Origin: a virus
Length of the DNA stretch: 48,482 nucleotides
Strand: one strand, 5' to 3'
Virus record (IMG/VR): IMGVR_UViG_3300020054_000854
Span: 1 to 48,482 of that record
Positions 1-36,347 of this stretch are shown in pieces (positions within the stretch are counted from its first letter, which is position 1; the number at the start of each line of letters is the position of its first letter). The position numbers and the translations under genes were made by a program. The notes under the pieces were generated by a model, which made no database searches, was not told where the DNA came from, and worked only from the letters and a program-made list of their open reading frames with translations.

Positions 1-416
1 AATTTGATTGACGCCGTTTCGCCGGTTTCTGGCTCTATACAAGAAACATACAATGTTTGTTCCGAGCGTTTAAGAGTATAACTTCCAATGCCTTGCATAT
101 AATCGGTTTCATTTGCTGATACTGTTAAACCTGGCGCGTCAATTGGTATGTTTGAAATTTTTACAGTTTGACTTGGAAATATTTCTTGAGATAAGTCATG
201 ACTGAATTCAAGCTCAAAATTTTTCTTTGTTTTAAATTCAAAGACTTCAATATCAAAATAATGAGTTGACGAATCAACGTTTGAAATATCCATTCCTTCA
301 ATGTAATAATGATCGTCTAAATCACCATTTTGTATATGAGGCATTGCTTCTTCGTCAATTTCCCACTGAAAAAAATTTAAAATCTTACCTTCTTTCGTAG
401 CATTAAGTATATTCAT
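1..416 (-). CDS. hypothetical protein, partial (C-terminus beyond window)
   Basis: An open frame runs leftward from an ATG at 416 to the window edge with no stop, so about 138 N-terminal residues are visible (starts MNILNATKEGKILNFFQWEI). It begins two bases after the stop of the 396-residue structural gene and is probably co-transcribed with it from the late promoter at 1640-1647. The visible part is acidic, has no membrane segment and no motif I recognise. Position next to an adhesin-like late gene suggests a virion or tail-associated protein, but that is inference only. Confidence 0.7.
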   Translation of the reverse strand, partial: MNILNATKEGKILNFFQWEIDEEAMPHIQNGDLDDHYYIEGMDISNVDSSTHYFDIEVFEFKTKKNFELEFSHDLSQEIFPSQTVKISNIPIDAPGLTVSANETDYMQGIGSYTLKRSEQTLYVSCIEPETGETASIK

Positions 417-418
417 AT

Positions 419-1609
419 TTATCCAACATTAATGTTAATATTAAGTGGCCAATAACTAGCACTTGCCCTAGCTGCCCCAGTAAATTCTGCGACTTGAGTA
501 TCTAGGTATTGACTCGTGCGAATCCATAAATCAATATCCTTTAATACTTCTACTGTGTTTGTGCTTCCTTCAGCCGAAGGATCTGGGTATTGAGCAACAG
601 CGTCAAATGTTATTGTTAGTGCATTCCCCTCTGACGGAGTAGCGGTCCAAGTTTGTCCACCGTTCAAAGAAACCGCAGTTGGTATACCTCCAACACCTTT
701 ATATAATACTCTCCAATTTGAAGCTGATCCAAACCCGGTATTAACATCAAACATTGATTCTACAATTGTATTTCCTACGGCATCATAATGGACAATACCG
801 TCTGCATACAAAGCACGGCCTTGCAATTCATATCCAGTTGCAGTTCTTATTACTTTAAATTGCCCTGACGCCGTTGAATTTTCAGAAGTTCCTGGAGGAG
901 TTACTGAACCTTCAGTACACACATAACATAAAATTGGATCGCCGTTCCCGTCTGTACCTTTTGTTAACGTATACAAAGTATCTCCACTCAATGGCATACT
1001 TGGAGGAGTAGTGCTAGTATCATTAACGCTTAAAGTTTTTGATGGCGAGTTGGTTGAAATGTTATTGCTATCTGTTGCATCTATAGTTACTGTAAATGTT
1101 TCAGGATTTTGATCATCGTCTAAATTATCAGCTTTAGCTCGAACCCACATTTCAAACTTATCGCCATTTATAGTCAATGTTCCAGTATTAGTAGTTAACG
1201 TTGAAAACCCAGCGGTTGCACTTGTATAAGAAATTTCAAGATCCGCTCCTACGCCAACATATTCAACACCGCCAGTTGCATTTGCAGTCCATCCTACAGT
1301 TGTTCCAGCAGCAAGACCGTTGCCGTATAAAGTAAACTTTGCTACAGTCCCATCTTCATCGATTGATGTCGGCGATAAAGTAAAGCTACCATATCCAACT
1401 GCTTCTAAACCATAAAAGTCAGTCATCGAGATTGCTTTATCTCCAGCCCCGCCTGTTGGTAATGTTTCTTCTTCTCCATAATATTCTGACAACGAATGCG
1501 GACGAGAACCGCCAAAAACATTAGTAATTCCTCTTTCTGCAGAATCGCCGACTGCATCGTTTGCAGCATTTTCAAATGATATTGCACCGGATGCTGTTAA
1601 TGCTACCAT
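419..1609 (-). CDS. virion structural / tail adhesin-like protein
   Basis: 396 residues. The N-terminus resembles the short modules of marine T4-like tail-fibre/tip proteins: segments rich in G, A and S ending in ISMTDFYG. It is followed (about 70-200) by a beta-sandwich-like region with the pattern SFTLSPTSIDEDGTVAKFTL, reminiscent of Calx-beta or Ig-like adhesion domains, then a short linker with TSTTPP and a C-terminal beta-rich domain of about 190 residues that could be receptor binding. No signal peptide and no membrane segment. A perfect T4-late TATAAATA box lies 30 bases upstream and an AGGA ribosome site precedes the ATG, which fits a late virion gene. The exact role (fibre, tip or head decoration) is not shown. 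Confidence 0.65.
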   Translation of the reverse strand: MVALTASGAISFENAANDAVGDSAERGITNVFGGSRPHSLSEYYGEEETLPTGGAGDKAISMTDFYGLEAVGYGSFTLSPTSIDEDGTVAKFTLYGNGLAAGTTVGWTANATGGVEYVGVGADLEISYTSATAGFSTLTTNTGTLTINGDKFEMWVRAKADNLDDDQNPETFTVTIDATDSNNISTNSPSKTLSVNDTSTTPPSMPLSGDTLYTLTKGTDGNGDPILCYVCTEGSVTPPGTSENSTASGQFKVIRTATGYELQGRALYADGIVHYDAVGNTIVESMFDVNTGFGSASNWRVLYKGVGGIPTAVSLNGGQTWTATPSEGNALTITFDAVAQYPDPSAEGSTNTVEVLKDIDLWIRTSQYLDTQVAEFTGAARASASYWPLNININVG

Positions 1610-1639
1610 TTTAATTAATTCCTAATTATAGACATTAAT

Positions 1640-1647
1640 TATTTATA
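1640..1647 (-). promoter_or_regulatory. T4-type late promoter (TATAAATA)
   Basis: The minus strand reads TATAAATA, the exact T4 gp55-dependent late -10 box, about 30 bases upstream of the ATG of the structural gene at 1609. gp55 is encoded in this window. Confidence 0.7.
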
Positions 1648-1651
1648 TAGG

Positions 1652-1725
1652 CGCGGGGATACGGGTTCGAACCGCAAGTTTCGGGGTTGGACTCCGACGT
1701 GTTCACCGACTTACACCACCCCCAC
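1652..1725 (-). tRNA. tRNA-Trp (CCA anticodon)
   Basis: A cloverleaf folds on the minus strand: acceptor GTGGGGG pairs with TCCCCGC (one T-G and one G-T), D stem GTGT/ACAC, T arm TGCGG-TTCGAAC-CCGTA. The anticodon loop GTCCAAC gives anticodon CCA. The anticodon stem has one A-C mismatch next to the loop. CCA is not fully encoded (discriminator G, then CC, then T). It is the least canonical of the eight tRNAs, so identity is slightly uncertain. Confidence 0.75.
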
Positions 1726-1735
1726 ATTAGGAATG

Positions 1736-1981
1736 TTATTCGTCTTCTTCAGTAGATGTAATAGTAATTGTTATAGTATCTGTTTCAGCGGCTTCCATTG
1801 CACGCAATTCTTTTTCAAGTCGATCTAAAAATTCTTGCGCTCGTAAAGCTCCTTTGAACCATTCATCAAATACTTGCATTTGCGCAATGTATTCCGACTC
1901 TGCTTCCATTTCTCTTTCAATTGCTTCTTCAATTTTGCGTTGTTTGTAATCGCAAAAACTTATTACATTTGAATTCTTCAT
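1736..1981 (-). CDS. small acidic coiled-coil protein, unknown function
   Basis: 81 residues, very rich in E, with a long predicted helix (EEAIEREMEAESEYIAQM...) and a C-terminal T/I/E tail (TITITITSTEEDE). No recognised domain. Its ATG overlaps the stop of the upstream 66-residue gene by four bases (ATGA), so the two are translationally coupled. It ends ten bases before tRNA-Trp. Not identified. Confidence 0.6.
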   Translation of the reverse strand: MKNSNVISFCDYKQRKIEEAIEREMEAESEYIAQMQVFDEWFKGALRAQEFLDRLEKELRAMEAAETDTITITITSTEEDE

Positions 1982-2178
1982 AGTGCAGGCTTGACTTGCT
2001 CTATTGAAACAAGAGATTCTCTTCTAATATCCATAATAAGACCATCGTGTCTTTTTACAAATACAAAATCACTGGCATCATTATTAAATTCTTCAGGCAT
2101 ATCACCAAAGATTTCTAATTGTCTATCGGTGTCTTTCCAATGACGATATATAACCTTGTAGATACGTTCCATTTCCAT
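1978..2178 (-). CDS. small hypothetical protein
   Basis: 66 residues (starts MEMERIYKVIYRHW). Mixed alpha/beta composition, no signal peptide or membrane segment, no motif recognised. It overlaps the following 81-residue gene by ATGA and lies ten bases after the upstream 64-residue gene, so it sits inside a tight leftward run of small genes. An AGGAATT-like ribosome site precedes the ATG. Confidence 0.6.
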   Translation of the reverse strand: MEMERIYKVIYRHWKDTDRQLEIFGDMPEEFNNDASDFVFVKRHDGLIMDIRRESLVSIEQVKPAL

Positions 2179-2188
2179 AAAGGAATTC

Positions 2189-2383
2189 CTATTCTGTGTC
2201 TGCTAATACAACCGATCCTACGGTTGGCCAAGGATGTCCTTCTCTTGTTGATTGACCTTTAAGATCGGCTGGTACTTTTGCTAATTTGATAAAATATCTT
2301 TTACCCTTTGAACTTTTGTATTCAGCCTCAACGGTACCTTTTACTTTTTGACCGTTCCATTTAAAATCTTTCACTATGCTCAT
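2189..2383 (-). CDS. small hypothetical protein
   Basis: 64 residues, lysine-rich, predicted as a small beta-rich fold (MSIVKDFKWNGQKVKGTVEA...). No recognised domain. Its ATG overlaps the stop codon of the upstream 43-residue ORF as ATGA at 2380-2383, which supports both starts. Function unknown. Confidence 0.6.
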   Translation of the reverse strand: MSIVKDFKWNGQKVKGTVEAEYKSSKGKRYFIKLAKVPADLKGQSTREGHPWPTVGSVVLADTE

Positions 2384-2511
2384 AGTCTTTTACTCTTATA
2401 AAAATTAATATATTCTGGCCAAGCATAAAAACCTTGACGAATAAAACAAAAGAATTGCCCATTGTATGGAGGATCCAATTTAACAGGGATATTCAATTCA
2501 GTCTGTACCAT
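2380..2511 (-). CDS. 43-residue hypothetical protein
   Basis: A short minus-strand ORF starting ATG at 2511 behind a strong TTGAGGAG ribosome site and ending TGA at 2380-2382, overlapping the next ATG as ATGA. The protein is aromatic-rich (MVQTELNIPVKLDPPYNGQF, later FYAWPEYINFYKS). The ribosome site and exact stop/start overlap are the evidence that it is real; no family recognised. Confidence 0.6.
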   Translation of the reverse strand: MVQTELNIPVKLDPPYNGQFFCFIRQGFYAWPEYINFYKSKRL

Positions 2512-2535
2512 AACAAATCTCCTCAAAAAAATTAT

Positions 2536-3693
2536 TTATTTGCTTCGTGTATTTCCATATCTTATTATTTTTGATCCCGGGACAGAATGTTTTAAGGATC
2601 GAAAAACATCTACGATTATACTGTCCTTAGGAGGTTTCATACCCATAAACATTTCATAATCATGGAGCATAAAAGTTAACGGTCCTAAGTCTTCAGGATA
2701 TTCATCATAAAAAACTTTAAAACCAGCTTCTTCACAATAATAAGCGACCAACAATGCAGGCGATCCGTGAGTTTGGTCTATCCCAGGTTTAAAAGCTTTA
2801 CCGACAATAACAATAGGATTGCCAAAACTTGTTAAAAAATTTGCCAAGTTTTTTGATTGTATTTCTCTAGCATACATAATGCTTTGAAACAAATCATAAC
2901 CTAAATTATATTTTTCTACTATACTACTAAGAGCTATATTATCTCTAGGATGACAGCCACCGCCATCTCCTAATCCTGCCGACATATAAGAAGGACCCAT
3001 AATTCTTTTCGTCGAATTCTTTAACGCATCAGTAACAATATCAACATTTATATTACCGACATTTTGTGCAACGTCTTGAATCATATTTACTAATGCAAGT
3101 TTAGCAGAAATAAACGTATTGTAAAAAATCTTTATACTTTCAGCTTCTTCCCAAGTACCTATAACATACCTTGTATCTTTCTTAATAAATTTTTTATAAA
3201 AATCAGACAATATTTTTGCGTCAGACGTCGTGTCTCCATCGTCGGTTCCAATTATAATCATTTCAGGATTGACCATATCCCATTTAACAGAGCCCTGGGA
3301 AATAAGATATGGATTATATATGAATCTTCCATTTTTTACTAGCGGTACTATTTCTTTTCTAACCGTCCCAGGTAAAACAGTTGAAATTAATACTATTAAA
3401 GTGTTTGAATTAACTTTGGAATCAACCTGCTGTATTACTTCTTTTGCAATTTCATAATTAAAATCTTTAGGAGGTAAGTGGCTTGTAGGTTCTTTCCCAT
3501 CATACAAAGGATCGTGAGGTGTTGGAACTGCTATAAAAATAATTTCTTTGTCTTTACATACTGTATCCAAATCTTTTTGAATAACAGTCGTGTCAATTTC
3601 TTTAATATCAAAACCTTCTAGGTCGTAATGCTGCGAAATTACTTCAGCCGCGTCTTTTCCTAAGTTACCTAATCCTATAAATCCTACTTTCAT
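2536..3693 (-). CDS. nucleotide-sugar dehydrogenase (UDP-glucose/GDP-mannose dehydrogenase family)
   Basis: 385 residues, the usual length for the family. The N-terminal Rossmann domain has GFIGLGNLG (GxGxxG) and the conserved strand IFIAVPTPHDP, followed by STVLPGTVRKE. The central domain carries the catalytic-cysteine motif GDGGGCHPRDN (compare GGSCFPKD of UDP-glucose dehydrogenases). The C-terminal domain has VGKAFKPGIDQTHGSPALLV, the second nucleotide-binding domain. The family oxidises a UDP- or GDP-sugar to the uronic acid in two NAD-dependent steps. It heads or belongs to a leftward cassette with a glycosyltransferase and two methyltransferases, so it probably supplies an activated uronic sugar for surface-glycan or virion modification. 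The actual substrate cannot be read from sequence. Confidence 0.85.
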   Translation of the reverse strand: MKVGFIGLGNLGKDAAEVISQHYDLEGFDIKEIDTTVIQKDLDTVCKDKEIIFIAVPTPHDPLYDGKEPTSHLPPKDFNYEIAKEVIQQVDSKVNSNTLIVLISTVLPGTVRKEIVPLVKNGRFIYNPYLISQGSVKWDMVNPEMIIIGTDDGDTTSDAKILSDFYKKFIKKDTRYVIGTWEEAESIKIFYNTFISAKLALVNMIQDVAQNVGNINVDIVTDALKNSTKRIMGPSYMSAGLGDGGGCHPRDNIALSSIVEKYNLGYDLFQSIMYAREIQSKNLANFLTSFGNPIVIVGKAFKPGIDQTHGSPALLVAYYCEEAGFKVFYDEYPEDLGPLTFMLHDYEMFMGMKPPKDSIIVDVFRSLKHSVPGSKIIRYGNTRSK

Positions 3694-3710
3694 TCTTTCA
3701 CCGTTTTCTA

Positions 3711-4367
3711 TTATGATCTAGCCATTATAGCCCAATCATCTCTAGGCCAATCGATCTTAGGTAACAATTTCCATCCTTGACTTTCCAACCAAGGAACTGC
3801 AGTTCTTCCTTTCCCAAACCACCCATTATTATATGTATGTCCTTTTGCTTTACCTTTTTGAATCAATCTAGCAAAAGTTTTAGTTTCTTCTATTTTATAT
3901 GTATCATCAAACAACAATAAGCATTTTTCAGAAGACCTTTCATGTACCCACTGCGCCAATTCCAAATGAAAATTTTCTGAGTTTTCATTTGTAAGTTCCA
4001 TTCCTCTAGCTTTATATTGAGGAGTCTGTCGTTGAATCATCGCGCTATCTTCCATACCTGGAGGTATATAATCAAATGCGTCTAAATGGGCAAACGCAAT
4101 TGGGGATGTTAATTCTAAAAACCCATCCTTCCAATTTTTGGTATGAAAGTTTACATAGTCGTGATTAGAAAAATATTTTTGAAGTTGAGAAATTACGTTT
4201 TCTTCAATATCGTATCCATGATATTCAATTTTTTCTTTATTGAAATATTCGCCAAACCATTGACTGCTAGAGATGCTGCTTGGCACGCTACAACCAACTT
4301 CAACCGCAACTCCTTTTCCTATGTATTCTTTATATTGATTTATAGCGCTATGAGCTAATCCTCCCAT
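3711..4367 (-). CDS. class I SAM-dependent methyltransferase-like protein
   Basis: 218 residues. Near the N-terminus VAVEVGCSVPSSIS resembles motif I of Rossmann-type methyltransferases; IEYHGYDIEE looks like the post-I acidic strand end, and the strand CLLLFDDTYK is like the later beta strands of methyltransferases that act on sugars (Methyltransf_24/TylF-like). It overlaps the upstream glycosyltransferase by 13 bases and is 17 bases from the dehydrogenase, so the genes form one unit. Probable role: methylation of a sugar or glycan made by the cassette; acceptor unknown. Confidence 0.6.
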   Translation of the reverse strand: MGGLAHSAINQYKEYIGKGVAVEVGCSVPSSISSSQWFGEYFNKEKIEYHGYDIEENVISQLQKYFSNHDYVNFHTKNWKDGFLELTSPIAFAHLDAFDYIPPGMEDSAMIQRQTPQYKARGMELTNENSENFHLELAQWVHERSSEKCLLLFDDTYKIEETKTFARLIQKGKAKGHTYNNGWFGKGRTAVPWLESQGWKLLPKIDWPRDDWAIMARS

Positions 4368-5056
4368 ATCAGTTCCTTCAATTTTTTTGCATCTTTTAAT
4401 CTAACATTTTCAGTATCATTAAATATAATCTGATCTTTATGATATAGATTGCCTCTTTCTTGTGTTCTATTCCTTGCATAGGTTTGGTCGTAATCAGATT
4501 TATTTACAACAAAATGTTTATGTTCTGTTTGTACCGTAGGAATGAAATGACATCGATTAATTTTTTTCGCAATGTCAAAAACCCAAGTATCATTATACCC
4601 AAAATTAAAAACACCAGGCGTAAAGTATCCTAAGCAATTGTACCATTCTTTTGAAACAATTGGAAAGGCGCAATGTTTACTACCATTAATTTTATCTTCG
4701 AACCATGCACAGTAAATTTTATCTTTAAAAATCGATATGCTTTCTTGAAGTTCAGTATCCCATCCGCTTGAAAGATATATCAAATCATCGTTACCCATTA
4801 TTAATATTTCTGCGCCGTCAGCGATTGCTTTTTCAGCTAAAACATTCCAACTTTTTGATACTGAAATCGGTTCGCCAACTATGTCTATGGCGTTATACAA
4901 TTCTTGAGATGAATAATTTGAGATTTCGGGATCGTCGTTATCTATATAATAATAACAAAAAATGTTTTCTTTGCGATCTGCCAAATCAATAACGGAATCA
5001 TGAAAACGTTTTCTTTTTAAATGTCTTTGTCTTGTTGGTGTTAAAAGAGCAATCAT
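4355..5056 (-). CDS. glycosyltransferase, GT-A/GT2-like
   Basis: 233 residues. N-terminal IALLTPTRQRHLKRKRFHDS is the typical first strand and helix of GT2-type enzymes, and the motif LIMGNDDLIYLSSGWD carries the acidic pair (NDD) expected to bind the divalent metal and nucleotide sugar. Later GVFNFGYNDTWVFDIAKK is like the acceptor-side region. No membrane helices. It overlaps both neighbours by a few bases (4 bp with the upstream methyltransferase gene), indicating translational coupling. Donor could be the uronic sugar from the dehydrogenase gene. Confidence 0.7.
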   Translation of the reverse strand: MIALLTPTRQRHLKRKRFHDSVIDLADRKENIFCYYYIDNDDPEISNYSSQELYNAIDIVGEPISVSKSWNVLAEKAIADGAEILIMGNDDLIYLSSGWDTELQESISIFKDKIYCAWFEDKINGSKHCAFPIVSKEWYNCLGYFTPGVFNFGYNDTWVFDIAKKINRCHFIPTVQTEHKHFVVNKSDYDQTYARNRTQERGNLYHKDQIIFNDTENVRLKDAKKLKELIWED

Positions 5057-34318: not shown

Positions 34319-34720
34319 ATGGAAGAGGATATTTTCAAAGGTGTGGGTATTGAGATCAATCTCCCAGCCCAGGATAATTTTTTAAAGGTTAAAGAAACCT
34401 TAACGCGGATAGGTATCAGCTCAAGGAAAGAGCGTCGTCTTTATCAATCGTGTCACATTCTCCATAAACAAAATCGATATGCAGTTCTTCATTTTAAAGA
34501 GTTGTTTATTTTGGATGGAAAAAGGAATACGTTTACTGATGAAGATCGCGCAAGAAGAAATACAATTGTAAATTTGCTTGAAGAATGGGACTTAGTAAAA
34601 ATTGTTAATAGAGAAGCTGCATCTGAACCGATTGCATCTTTAAATCAAATTAAAATCATTTCTTTTAAAGACAAAGATGATTGGGAATTAGCGGTTAAGT
34701 ATAATATTGGTAAAAAATAA
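34319..34720 (+). CDS. regA: translational repressor RegA
   Basis: 133 residues (T4 122). FLKVKETLTRIGISSRKERR, LYQSCHILHKQNRYAVLHFK, RRNTIVNLLEEWDLVKIV and IKIISFKDKDDWELAVKYNI match T4 RegA closely. RNA-binding protein that blocks ribosome access to early mRNAs. N-terminus is about ten residues longer than T4. Ribosome site AAGGTGAG. Confidence 0.95.
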   Translation: MEEDIFKGVGIEINLPAQDNFLKVKETLTRIGISSRKERRLYQSCHILHKQNRYAVLHFKELFILDGKRNTFTDEDRARRNTIVNLLEEWDLVKIVNREAASEPIASLNQIKIISFKDKDDWELAVKYNIGKK

Positions 34721-34734
34721 CCGAGGCTTATATT

Positions 34735-35169
34735 ATGAAAATAAGAAAAGTACATTCAGCTAGTACTTATATTTTGAACGAATTAAATCAAATAGAAATT
34801 TCTCCAGTGTTTACGCAAGGAGAAAGATTAACATTATGGGACGCTTGGAACGAATCAAAACCTATTCTTGTTAAACAGCTAACAAGAGGAATAGGTATAA
34901 TGTTGCCACCAGAGTCAAGAATTGGTTTGCCAACTGGTTTATTCGTTTCGGGTTTGTCAAAGGATACCGTATTAGAAGTTGATGTAAGTCCTTCTGCGTC
35001 ATTAACAAAGGGTTTAATGTCTATCGGTAGTACAATTATAACAGAAGACGGAGAGATCACTGTAGGATGTTATAATGCTTCTGATAGTCTTGTTGCGATA
35101 GTTAACGGGGACGTAATTGGAATAGGAAAATTAACTAAAATTTCTTCTGTTCCTATAGAAAACGAATAA
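34735..35169 (+). CDS. degenerate dUTPase-fold protein
   Basis: 144 residues. IMLPPESRIGLPTGLFVSGL matches dUTPase motif I surroundings (PxxxxxxPTGL), and later strands align in order, but motif II RSG is replaced by SPSA and the motif III catalytic Asp/Tyr (IDxxYxG) is replaced by IITEDGEIT. So the trimeric dUTPase fold seems kept without the catalytic residues. Function unknown; it could be structural or regulatory. Just upstream of hsp20. Confidence 0.5.
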   Translation: MKIRKVHSASTYILNELNQIEISPVFTQGERLTLWDAWNESKPILVKQLTRGIGIMLPPESRIGLPTGLFVSGLSKDTVLEVDVSPSASLTKGLMSIGSTIITEDGEITVGCYNASDSLVAIVNGDVIGIGKLTKISSVPIENE

Positions 35170-35175
35170 ATAAAT

Positions 35176-35253
35176 TTCGAGATGCCGTAAGGGTCTCGAA
35201 TAATCGTCGGGTATTGCCGACACACAACTAAATGTCTTGCTTAAAAGGAGATA
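35176..35253 (+). promoter_or_regulatory. hsp20 leader: three hairpins, ROSE-like RNA thermometer candidate
   Basis: Hairpin 1: TTCGAGA (35176-35182) with TCTCGAA (35194-35200). Hairpin 2: GTCGG (35206-35210) with CCGAC (35217-35221). Hairpin 3: TGTCTTGCT (35233-35241) with AGGAGATA (35246-35253), loop TAAA, with G35239 bulged. Hairpin 3 sequesters the whole Shine-Dalgarno AGGAGA before ATG 35258. The UYGCU with bulged G facing AGGAG is the hallmark of ROSE elements in bacterial hsp20 leaders. Confidence 0.65.
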
Positions 35254-35257
35254 GCAC

Positions 35258-35710
35258 ATGACTAGACTTAACTTTAATACGTTAACCCCTTATTCCGTTG
35301 GTTTCGATCGCATGTTCGATCGGCTGTTAGATTTGGATACAAGCCATCCTAATAACCAAGGATTCCCCCCTTACAATATCCGCAGAGAAGATGAGAAATT
35401 CTTCATCGACATTGCTCTCGCCGGAATCGACCAAGAAGATATTGACATCGAGCACAAAGAAAATACCTTGACTGTCAAATCAGCGTGGGACGAATCAGGC
35501 GATTACCTCAATGGTGGTGGCGAATATCTTCACCGTGGTATTTCAAGAAAGAAATTTACTCGACAGTTCACCCTCACGGATGATATTGAGGTGCAAGGTG
35601 CCGAGTATGTCAATGGTCTTTTAACTATTCACTTGGAAAGGATTATCCCCGAAGAGAAGAGACCAAAGAAAATCGCTATTAATTCAAAAAAAGAATTGTT
35701 AGTTGAATAA
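35258..35710 (+). CDS. hsp20: small heat shock protein Hsp20
   Basis: 150 residues. N-terminus LNFNTLTPYSVGFDRMFDRL is like IbpA; the alpha-crystallin domain runs from YNIRREDEKFFIDIALAGID to YVNGLLTIHLERIIPEEKRP, and the tail KKIAINS holds the I-x-I motif. ATP-independent holdase. Marine T4-like phages often carry one, thought to aid virion assembly or protect host proteins. Expression likely temperature controlled (leader hairpins). Confidence 0.95.
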   Translation: MTRLNFNTLTPYSVGFDRMFDRLLDLDTSHPNNQGFPPYNIRREDEKFFIDIALAGIDQEDIDIEHKENTLTVKSAWDESGDYLNGGGEYLHRGISRKKFTRQFTLTDDIEVQGAEYVNGLLTIHLERIIPEEKRPKKIAINSKKELLVE

Positions 35711-35716
35711 ATATCC

Positions 35717-35732
35717 GGGGTCTTCGGACCCC
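35717..35732 (+). promoter_or_regulatory. UUCG-capped hairpin between hsp20 and peroxiredoxin
   Basis: GGGGTC-TTCG-GACCCC, a very stable C(UUCG)G hairpin 22 bases before the peroxiredoxin ATG. No T-run follows, so it is more likely an RNA stability or processing element than a terminator. Confidence 0.5.
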
Positions 35733-35753
35733 AACCTTGAGGAGTATAACATT

Positions 35754-36347
35754 ATGGAATTTGAAAAAACTAACTATCTTCCTTCTTTGATTCCGGACGT
35801 AACATTCAAAACGCGTGTTCGTGATGAATCTATTGGAGGGGATAATCCGTATCGTTGGGAAGACGTTACAACGGACGATCTGTTTGCTAATAAGCGAATT
35901 GTATTGTTCAGTCTTCCAGGTGCATTCACGCCGACTTGTTCAACGTACCAAGTACCTGGTTTTGAAGAAGCGTATGAACGCATCAAATCATTATATGTTG
36001 ATGATGTATATTGTATCTCTGTTAATGATTCGTTCGTTATGAATAAATGGGCAGAGGCACAAGGCGTCAAAAATATTAAAATGATTCCTGATGGATCAGG
36101 ATTATTTACTGATGGGATGGGAATGTTAGTTGACAAAGACAATCTCGGTTTCGGTAAAAGATCTTGGAGATATGCTGCACTTATTACGGATGGCGTTGTT
36201 GAATTTGAATTCGTTGAAGACGGAAAAGAAGACAATTGCGAAACCGATCCGTATGGCAAATCTTCGCCTGAATCAGTTATTAACTACCTTGAGCACGTCC
36301 AAGAAAGGTTCGAAGCAAAAGGTAAAGAAGGTGAAAAAGCTGCTTAA
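35754..36347 (+). CDS. peroxiredoxin (Prx5/AhpC-TSA type)
   Basis: 197 residues from ATG 35754 with TTGAGGAG upstream; an earlier in-frame start overlaps hsp20 and lacks a ribosome site. LFSLPGAFTPTCSTYQVPGF holds the peroxidatic Cys62 and the PxxxTxxC motif; FVMNKWAEAQG and DGSGLFTDGMGML are Prx5 features. Reduces hydrogen peroxide or organic peroxides; probably protects the infected cell from oxidative stress. C-terminal tail is charged. Confidence 0.92.
   Translation: MEFEKTNYLPSLIPDVTFKTRVRDESIGGDNPYRWEDVTTDDLFANKRIVLFSLPGAFTPTCSTYQVPGFEEAYERIKSLYVDDVYCISVNDSFVMNKWAEAQGVKNIKMIPDGSGLFTDGMGMLVDKDNLGFGKRSWRYAALITDGVVEFEFVEDGKEDNCETDPYGKSSPESVINYLEHVQERFEAKGKEGEKAA

Follow-up and report, generated by a model that had tools for sequence, protein, structure and literature searches.

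Judged from sequence comparison, the leader of the hsp20 gene in the viral DNA analyzed here is a ROSE-type leader, and leaders of this type are widespread in viruses, of which the window is a single instance. In bacteria, hairpin switches of this type induce heat-shock proteins as the temperature rises. The window, i.e., the whole stretch of DNA that was analyzed, comprises positions 1 to 48,482 (48,482 nucleotides) of IMG/VR virus record IMGVR_UViG_3300020054_000854. The hairpins of the leader are conserved and covary, they resemble bacterial ROSE leaders in searches run in both directions, and they are associated with chaperone genes. We consider it likely that the leader works as a ROSE-type switch, in which transcription would start at a late box and the Shine-Dalgarno (SD) sequence would be closed when cool and opened, most simply, by warming. 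The features concerned are as follows.

34319-34720: regA, gene for the phage RegA translational repressor (PF01818, E 7.4e-42)
35165-35172, plus strand: AATAAATA, late-promoter-like box directly 5' of hairpin I, overlapping the upstream ORF at its stop codon
35176-35200, plus strand: hairpin I, 10 pairs (8 outer pairs and CC/GG) with bulged G35184 and loop GUAA; covariation, also in Rfam ROSE
35206-35221, plus strand: hairpin II, 5 pairs; covariation
35233-35253, plus strand: hairpin III, 8 pairs with G35239 bulged; sequence and covariation, an alternative register exists
35237-35241, plus strand: UUGCU, ROSE anti-SD motif, conserved across viral Hsp20 loci
35246-35250, plus strand: SD sequence AGGAG, ending 7 nt 5' of the ATG at 35258
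35258-35710, plus strand: hsp20, IbpA-class small heat-shock protein (sHSP) of 150 amino acids (PF00011, E 4.8e-16; phrog_432, E 3.4e-39)

The sequence-only reading had drawn three consecutive hairpins in the 85 bases before hsp20, the last of them on the SD sequence with G35239 bulged, and both sequence and coordinates turned out to be as drawn, with covariation in relatives agreeing on the third hairpin. In hairpin III, the anti-SD arm TGTCTTGCT (35233-35241) faces the SD arm AGGAGATA (35246-35253), such that UGUCUUGCU pairs with AGGAGAUA and G35239 is left unpaired. The window and its relatives thereby show what characterizes ROSE-like thermometers: a 5' leader of an sHSP gene that reaches to the start codon, two to four hairpins with the SD sequence in the last one (hairpin III being backed by covariation just outside its core), a U(U/C)GCU motif imperfectly paired to the SD sequence, and, by sequence, an unpaired G facing it (G35239), which is a G in all leaders except the A/A ones described below. 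Hairpin II is confined to the leaders of the window's own clade, and most phage leaders have the two-hairpin form, as in Pseudomonas ibpA. A fourU thermometer was rejected, since no four consecutive U residues lie on the SD sequence, the anti-SD arm being UGUCUUGCU.

We gathered viral Hsp20 loci by protein similarity from contig scans, phage-collection records and two phage-like contigs. This yielded 351 loci with at least 60 bases before an in-frame ATG, while 17 were dropped for too short an upstream DNA. The succession of UYGC(U/G), AGGA and ATG was found in 330 of the 351 loci and in 161 of 173 unique 45-base leaders, compared with a mean of 5.7 and a maximum of 13 in shuffles that kept the AGGA, showing that the motif is not due to chance. 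The 12 unique leaders without it comprise six with UAGCU, five with UGUCU and one other. In the UAGCU clade (L013, L014, L016, L021, L023 and L030), the U-G wobble is broken and the bulged G kept; pelagiphage-like L390 to L397 have no UYGCU, and their sequence, CUGUCU-AAAC-A(A/U)GGAGG, leaves room for a bulged G shifted by one base toward the 5' end.

Viral contigs scanned with a 17-mer from hairpin III of relatives contained exact copies at no fewer than 120 places. Among the matches listed, 116 stand before an Hsp20 ORF and two are truncated where the contig ends, the remaining two preceding a groES gene (PF00166, E 1.6e-27) and an unassigned ORF of 72 amino acids, respectively. U(U/C)GCU also stands before the SD sequence in 12 of 13 phage-collection records, including HTVC008M and Mosig (Pelagibacter), P-SSM4 and P-SSM5 (Prochlorococcus), and S-ShM2 (Synechococcus); the sHSP of the latter was assayed as a chaperone after purification (PMC5028025). 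Two of these 13 records are not plain isolates: AG-345-P14 stems from single-cell data, and for ACG-2014f no host is given. The exception among the 13, Pseudomonas phage MIJ3, has UUGCG, and a protein scan found no relatives of its Hsp20 among the viral contigs. Two loci from Parcubacteria and Flavobacteriales bins (L215 and L216) encode an Hsp20 72-79% identical to phage Hsp20 behind a phage-type leader, and are probably phage contigs within bacterial bins.

Covariation in the third stem of related phages was what the sequence-only reading had staked itself on, and such covariation is present. Of 71 unique arm pairs from the protein-found loci, 70 form the first pair outside the UYGCU/AGGA core of hairpin III (C-G in 52, G-C in 9, A-U in 6, U-G in 3, and unpaired in 1), compared with 45.9 (standard deviation, 2.6) when arms were swapped, and none of 5,000 swaps reached 70. 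For the next pair outward, the values were 36 of 63 observed and 26.6 swapped, again with none of 5,000 swaps reaching the observed number, whereas pairs 7 to 9 gave no significant covariation in this motif-anchored swap test. Swapping does not remove shared ancestry, yet three Watson-Crick types and a wobble at one position would need several changes. For hairpin I, 73 unique arm pairs formed on average 4.07 of 5 outer pairs, compared with 2.30 (standard deviation, 0.11) for swapped arms; the anchor was picked blind to the arms, and some leaders were mis-registered but retained, which lowers the score. Across 27 three-hairpin leaders, the share of paired cells is 96.7% in helix 1, 99.3% in helix 2 and 93.7% in helix 3; double changes occur at 6 of the 10 pairs of helix 1 and at 2 of the 5 pairs of helix 2, while helix 3 is nearly invariant. 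Given that the SD sequence must be retained, the core of hairpin III cannot vary. RNAalifold run on leader alignments did not predict hairpin III. A MAFFT and RNAalifold analysis of 53 two-hairpin leaders (alignment A3) was discarded with two pairs found, since loop and spacer lengths vary and the alignment columns shift, and was replaced by the motif-anchored pairing tests and by covariance models from a cleaner alignment (A4).

That hairpin I covaries most strongly, and that energy models (see below) give no special thermal behavior, would suit stems that merely stabilize the 5' end of the mRNA or buffer its translation without any switch. We regard this as improbable, because it leaves unexplained the UYGCU opposite the SD sequence, the near-invariant bulged G and the confinement of the element to chaperone genes.

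Similarity to bacterial ROSE leaders was found in both directions. A covariance model built from 27 phage leaders (R1) was applied to 78 bacterial loci totaling 255,796 bases, and all of its 22 matches up to an E value of 10 lie at sHSP leaders, namely, those of ibpA or hspA and, in Serratia, of an ibpB so named from its position. The best of them, in Bradyrhizobium (L278, E 6.4e-4), is matched by Rfam ROSE at 75.5 bits. On four whole bacterial genomes, among them those of the locally matched L257 and L278, R1 gave no match, such a search being too coarse; in the window it gives one place. Conversely, a model of matches from outside the window's clade (R2) scored the element of the window at 54.2 bits (E 2.5e-9), with the next match at 21.6 bits. 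The ROSE-like identity that the sequence-only reading had claimed for the leader is thus borne out by covariation in each of the three stems and by this two-way similarity.

Among the closest comparisons are three bacterial elements. With the α-proteobacterial hspA ROSE element (RF00435), the phage leaders share a series of two to four hairpins that runs up to the start codon, a hairpin I with a bulged G and CC/GG, and UUGCU with a bulged G facing the SD sequence; Bradyrhizobium L278 even has the AUGCCGU-AGGGUC of hairpin I in common with them. The phage leaders differ in being shorter, A+T-rich and below the Rfam cutoff, with AGGAGA instead of GGAGGA, and in that they are phage encoded, carry a late-promoter-like box and also precede groES and dnaK. 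With the short ROSE-like thermometers of Pseudomonas ibpA, they share two hairpins, U(U/C)GCU facing the SD sequence, and an IbpA-class product; according to that report, the two-hairpin form is functional, with a σ32 promoter and demonstrated thermoregulation (PMC3669281), whereas thermoregulation by the phage leaders is putative. Lastly, the ROSE-like element of Providencia stuartii oppF, one of the further genes that later work has added to this class, contains the U-G wobble, bulged G and C-G pair that correspond to U35238-G35248, G35239 and C35240-G35247 of the window (PMC11342760). It belongs to a bacterial ABC transporter gene and comes with a crystal structure and with reporter data, in which deletion of the G or strengthening of the wobble cut or abolished heat induction (PMC11342760).

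The presence of the same structure on bacterial chromosomes also bears on RegA, for which the leader could serve as an operator. regA lies nearby in the window and adjoins hsp20 in S-RSM4, S-CRM01 and ACG-2014f, but since bacteria carry the structure as well and covariation preserves structure rather than a RegA-type sequence, we consider such an operator highly unlikely.

Among 4,227 Rfam families scanned on a 221-base stretch, ROSE (RF00435, 20.0 bits) and ROSE_3 (RF02523, 19.5 bits) scored best. Both hits keep the register of the start codon and fall far below the respective gathering cutoffs of 45 and 43; at the gathering level neither the window nor 20 relatives gave a ROSE match, and the element is therefore not filed in either family. 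However, only 2 of 20 loci from L215 to L294 (18 bacterial and 2 phage-like) reached the cutoff, showing that it is narrow and that missing it says little. In an Rfam search at E ≤ 10 of 15 sources (L587, L595 and the 13 loci of the phage collection), ROSE_3 matched L587 (32.1 bits, E 0.0037, the top score) and L211 (19.2 bits) and none of the other 13. Whole-genome searches with RF00435 and RF02523 gave no match anywhere, the controls included. Freshwater-2 RNA (RF02980), at 13.5 bits with a gathering cutoff of 49.9, did not qualify.

Energy folding agreed in part with what had been drawn. The 106-nt leader is more stable than its own shuffles (z score, −2.37; 3 of 200 shuffles equally good), and the SD sequence is hidden, but the drawn register of the third hairpin is not the favored one. 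Instead, ViennaRNA prefers a third hairpin of C35240-U35242 with G35248-G35250 plus AUGU/ACAU, at −9.2 kcal/mol compared with −5.7 kcal/mol for the ROSE register at 20°C, with the SD sequence hidden in both registers. Pairing of AUGU (35232-35235) with ACAU across the start codon, available to the clade of the window, would give a possible alternative third hairpin (35233-35259). The predicted probability that GGAG is free in the window leader is 0.04 at 20°C and reaches 0.37 at 40°C, but comparable opening ratios were obtained for other genes of the window, many of them larger than that of hsp20, and in SD closure at 20°C hsp20 ranks only 26th of 30 window genes, 25 being predicted to be more closed. 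Given that other genes are similarly or more closed, folding energy is no evidence here, and, with the other register preferred, we rejected it as a proof of the switch.

Hairpin I could be parsed in 208 unique leaders, of which 97 have a TAAATA box within 30 nt 5' of it, compared with 13.6 expected from shuffles, and in 95 of these 97 the box ends 1 to 6 nt before the stem. We take this box to be a putative late promoter, by analogy with the T4 late consensus. That consensus is given in the form 5'-TATAAAT-3' (PMC3037559), and by this analogy transcripts would probably start about at hairpin I, at the T4-like box just 5' of it; with such a start, the leader would be little more than the element itself. 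Hairpin I would act as a stable folding unit. Hairpin III, with UUGCU on AGGAG, would be weak because of its single bulged G beside a U-G wobble, would close the ribosome-binding site in the cool, unstressed cell, and would open, most simply on warming, so that Hsp20 is made. Hosts living in sea water experience little heat shock, which weighs against warming as the trigger.

The association with chaperones extends beyond hsp20. A GroES protein scan gave 11 loci, 10 of which have a ROSE-like leader. Nine of the GroES records were searched further, and all nine contain groEL and hsp20 and four contain dnaK; a ROSE-like element lies 5' of groES in 9 of 9, of hsp20 in 9 of 9, and of dnaK in 4 of 4, and models trained on hsp20 leaders match these places in the groES and dnaK records with E values from 4e-10 to 0.2. 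The records (L147, positions 5-4494, and G005 to G013) carry a groES-groEL-hsp20 cluster, with dnaK upstream in four, and one ROSE-like leader per transcription unit; L147 also encodes clpS, heme oxygenase and a ferredoxin-dependent bilin reductase. They are likely viral by their IMG/VR classing and PHROG matches. Searches of the groES records for phage hallmarks with PF03237 (8 records) and with PF07230 and PF17289 (7 each) found no match, and a search with PF07068 found none either, its controls being likewise silent.

In the four dnaK records, the bulge of hairpin III is an A in all 12 chaperone leaders (CUUACU; L572, L574, L575, L576, L580 to L582, L584, and L592 to L595), and the bulge of hairpin I is an A as well, as determined by script for groES and by visual inspection for the other two genes, hsp20 and dnaK. 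In the other five groES records, the hairpin III bulge is a G in all 10 leaders. A census of both bulges, in which a strict rule parsed 222 of 285 unique leaders (14 were dropped for lack of hairpin III and 49 for lack of hairpin I), gave 214 G/G, 3 A/A (all before groES) and 5 in other registers, which look like misparses. Hairpins I and III carry the same bulged motif, i.e., U, the bulged base, C, and C or U.

That A bulges occur jointly in every chaperone leader of these records hints at something that would act in trans. This bears on a reading in which the leader is mainly a protein operator, most likely for the phage sHSP itself, that senses folding load rather than temperature. A precedent exists in Escherichia coli, where IbpA is described as repressing its own mRNA via a ROSE-type 5' untranslated region until titrated by aggregates, which requires Arg93 and an aromatic residue at position 34, R93K being inactive (PMC10474464). 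The phage Hsp20s are IbpA class, so that an IbpA-class protein and a ROSE-type leader share one mRNA as in E. coli; Arg93 is present in 12 of the 13 phage-collection proteins, an aromatic residue (F or Y) occupies position 34 in all of those matched, and the unique loops of the other phage-protein scans have Arg93 throughout or almost throughout, except for those of the window's group. A single repressor could also serve hsp20, groESL and dnaK in chaperone-rich phages, and all three chaperone leaders of the four records have A at both bulges, compared with G elsewhere. On the other hand, position 93 is Lys in the Hsp20 of the window and in its close relatives, the substitution reported as inactive in IbpA (PMC10474464), the A/A state may go back to one evolutionary event followed by leader duplication, and binding of the leader by the phage sHSP is putative. 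With Arg93 in most proteins and Lys93 in the window clade, self-repression is plausible for many phages and weaker for the window, and as an account of the leader we consider an sHSP operator possible but on the unlikely side. Speculatively, and less likely than not, the chaperone-rich phages could even have a heat-shock regulon of dnaK, groES-groEL and hsp20, each with a ROSE-type leader, in which one trans-acting reader of the bulges, perhaps the sHSP as a sensor of aggregation, would tie expression to folding load in the infected cell in addition to temperature.

The element is ROSE-like in a new setting, the phage, with a new bulge variant. Lambda cIII is a phage RNA thermometer. Further phage RNA thermometers, of the fourU type, have been described for SPbeta blyA and upstream of a gut-phage σ70 gene (PMC11182007); these three are phage borne too, but they are neither ROSE elements nor located at chaperone genes. 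In the open-access literature searched, most of it judged from listings, we found no ROSE element in a phage. hsp20 is one of 25 core genes common to 16 cyanobacterial T4-like phages, and the portion of that study drawn on here holds no description of how hsp20 is controlled in them (PMC3037559). If the proposed switch is true, the translation of a gene abundant among ocean viruses would be tied to temperature or folding stress, with a bearing on infection under warming, and the range of ROSE elements, known from bacteria, would come to include phages as well as the genes groES and dnaK. Natural G-to-A changes at both bulges would offer a handle on the role of the conserved hairpin I.

In the window, the genes for clamp-loader proteins, RegA, Hsp20 and peroxiredoxin follow one another. 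The best NCBIfam model for the window Hsp20 is IbpA, at 108 bits and below the equivalog cutoff of 212. The peroxiredoxin gene (35703-36347) lies immediately 3' of hsp20 and is akin to those of Synechococcus phages; among the matches listed, the relatives of Hsp20 and peroxiredoxin are mostly from Synechococcus and Prochlorococcus phages. Eight tRNA genes, identified with Rfam, lie on the minus strand between positions 1652 and 8169.
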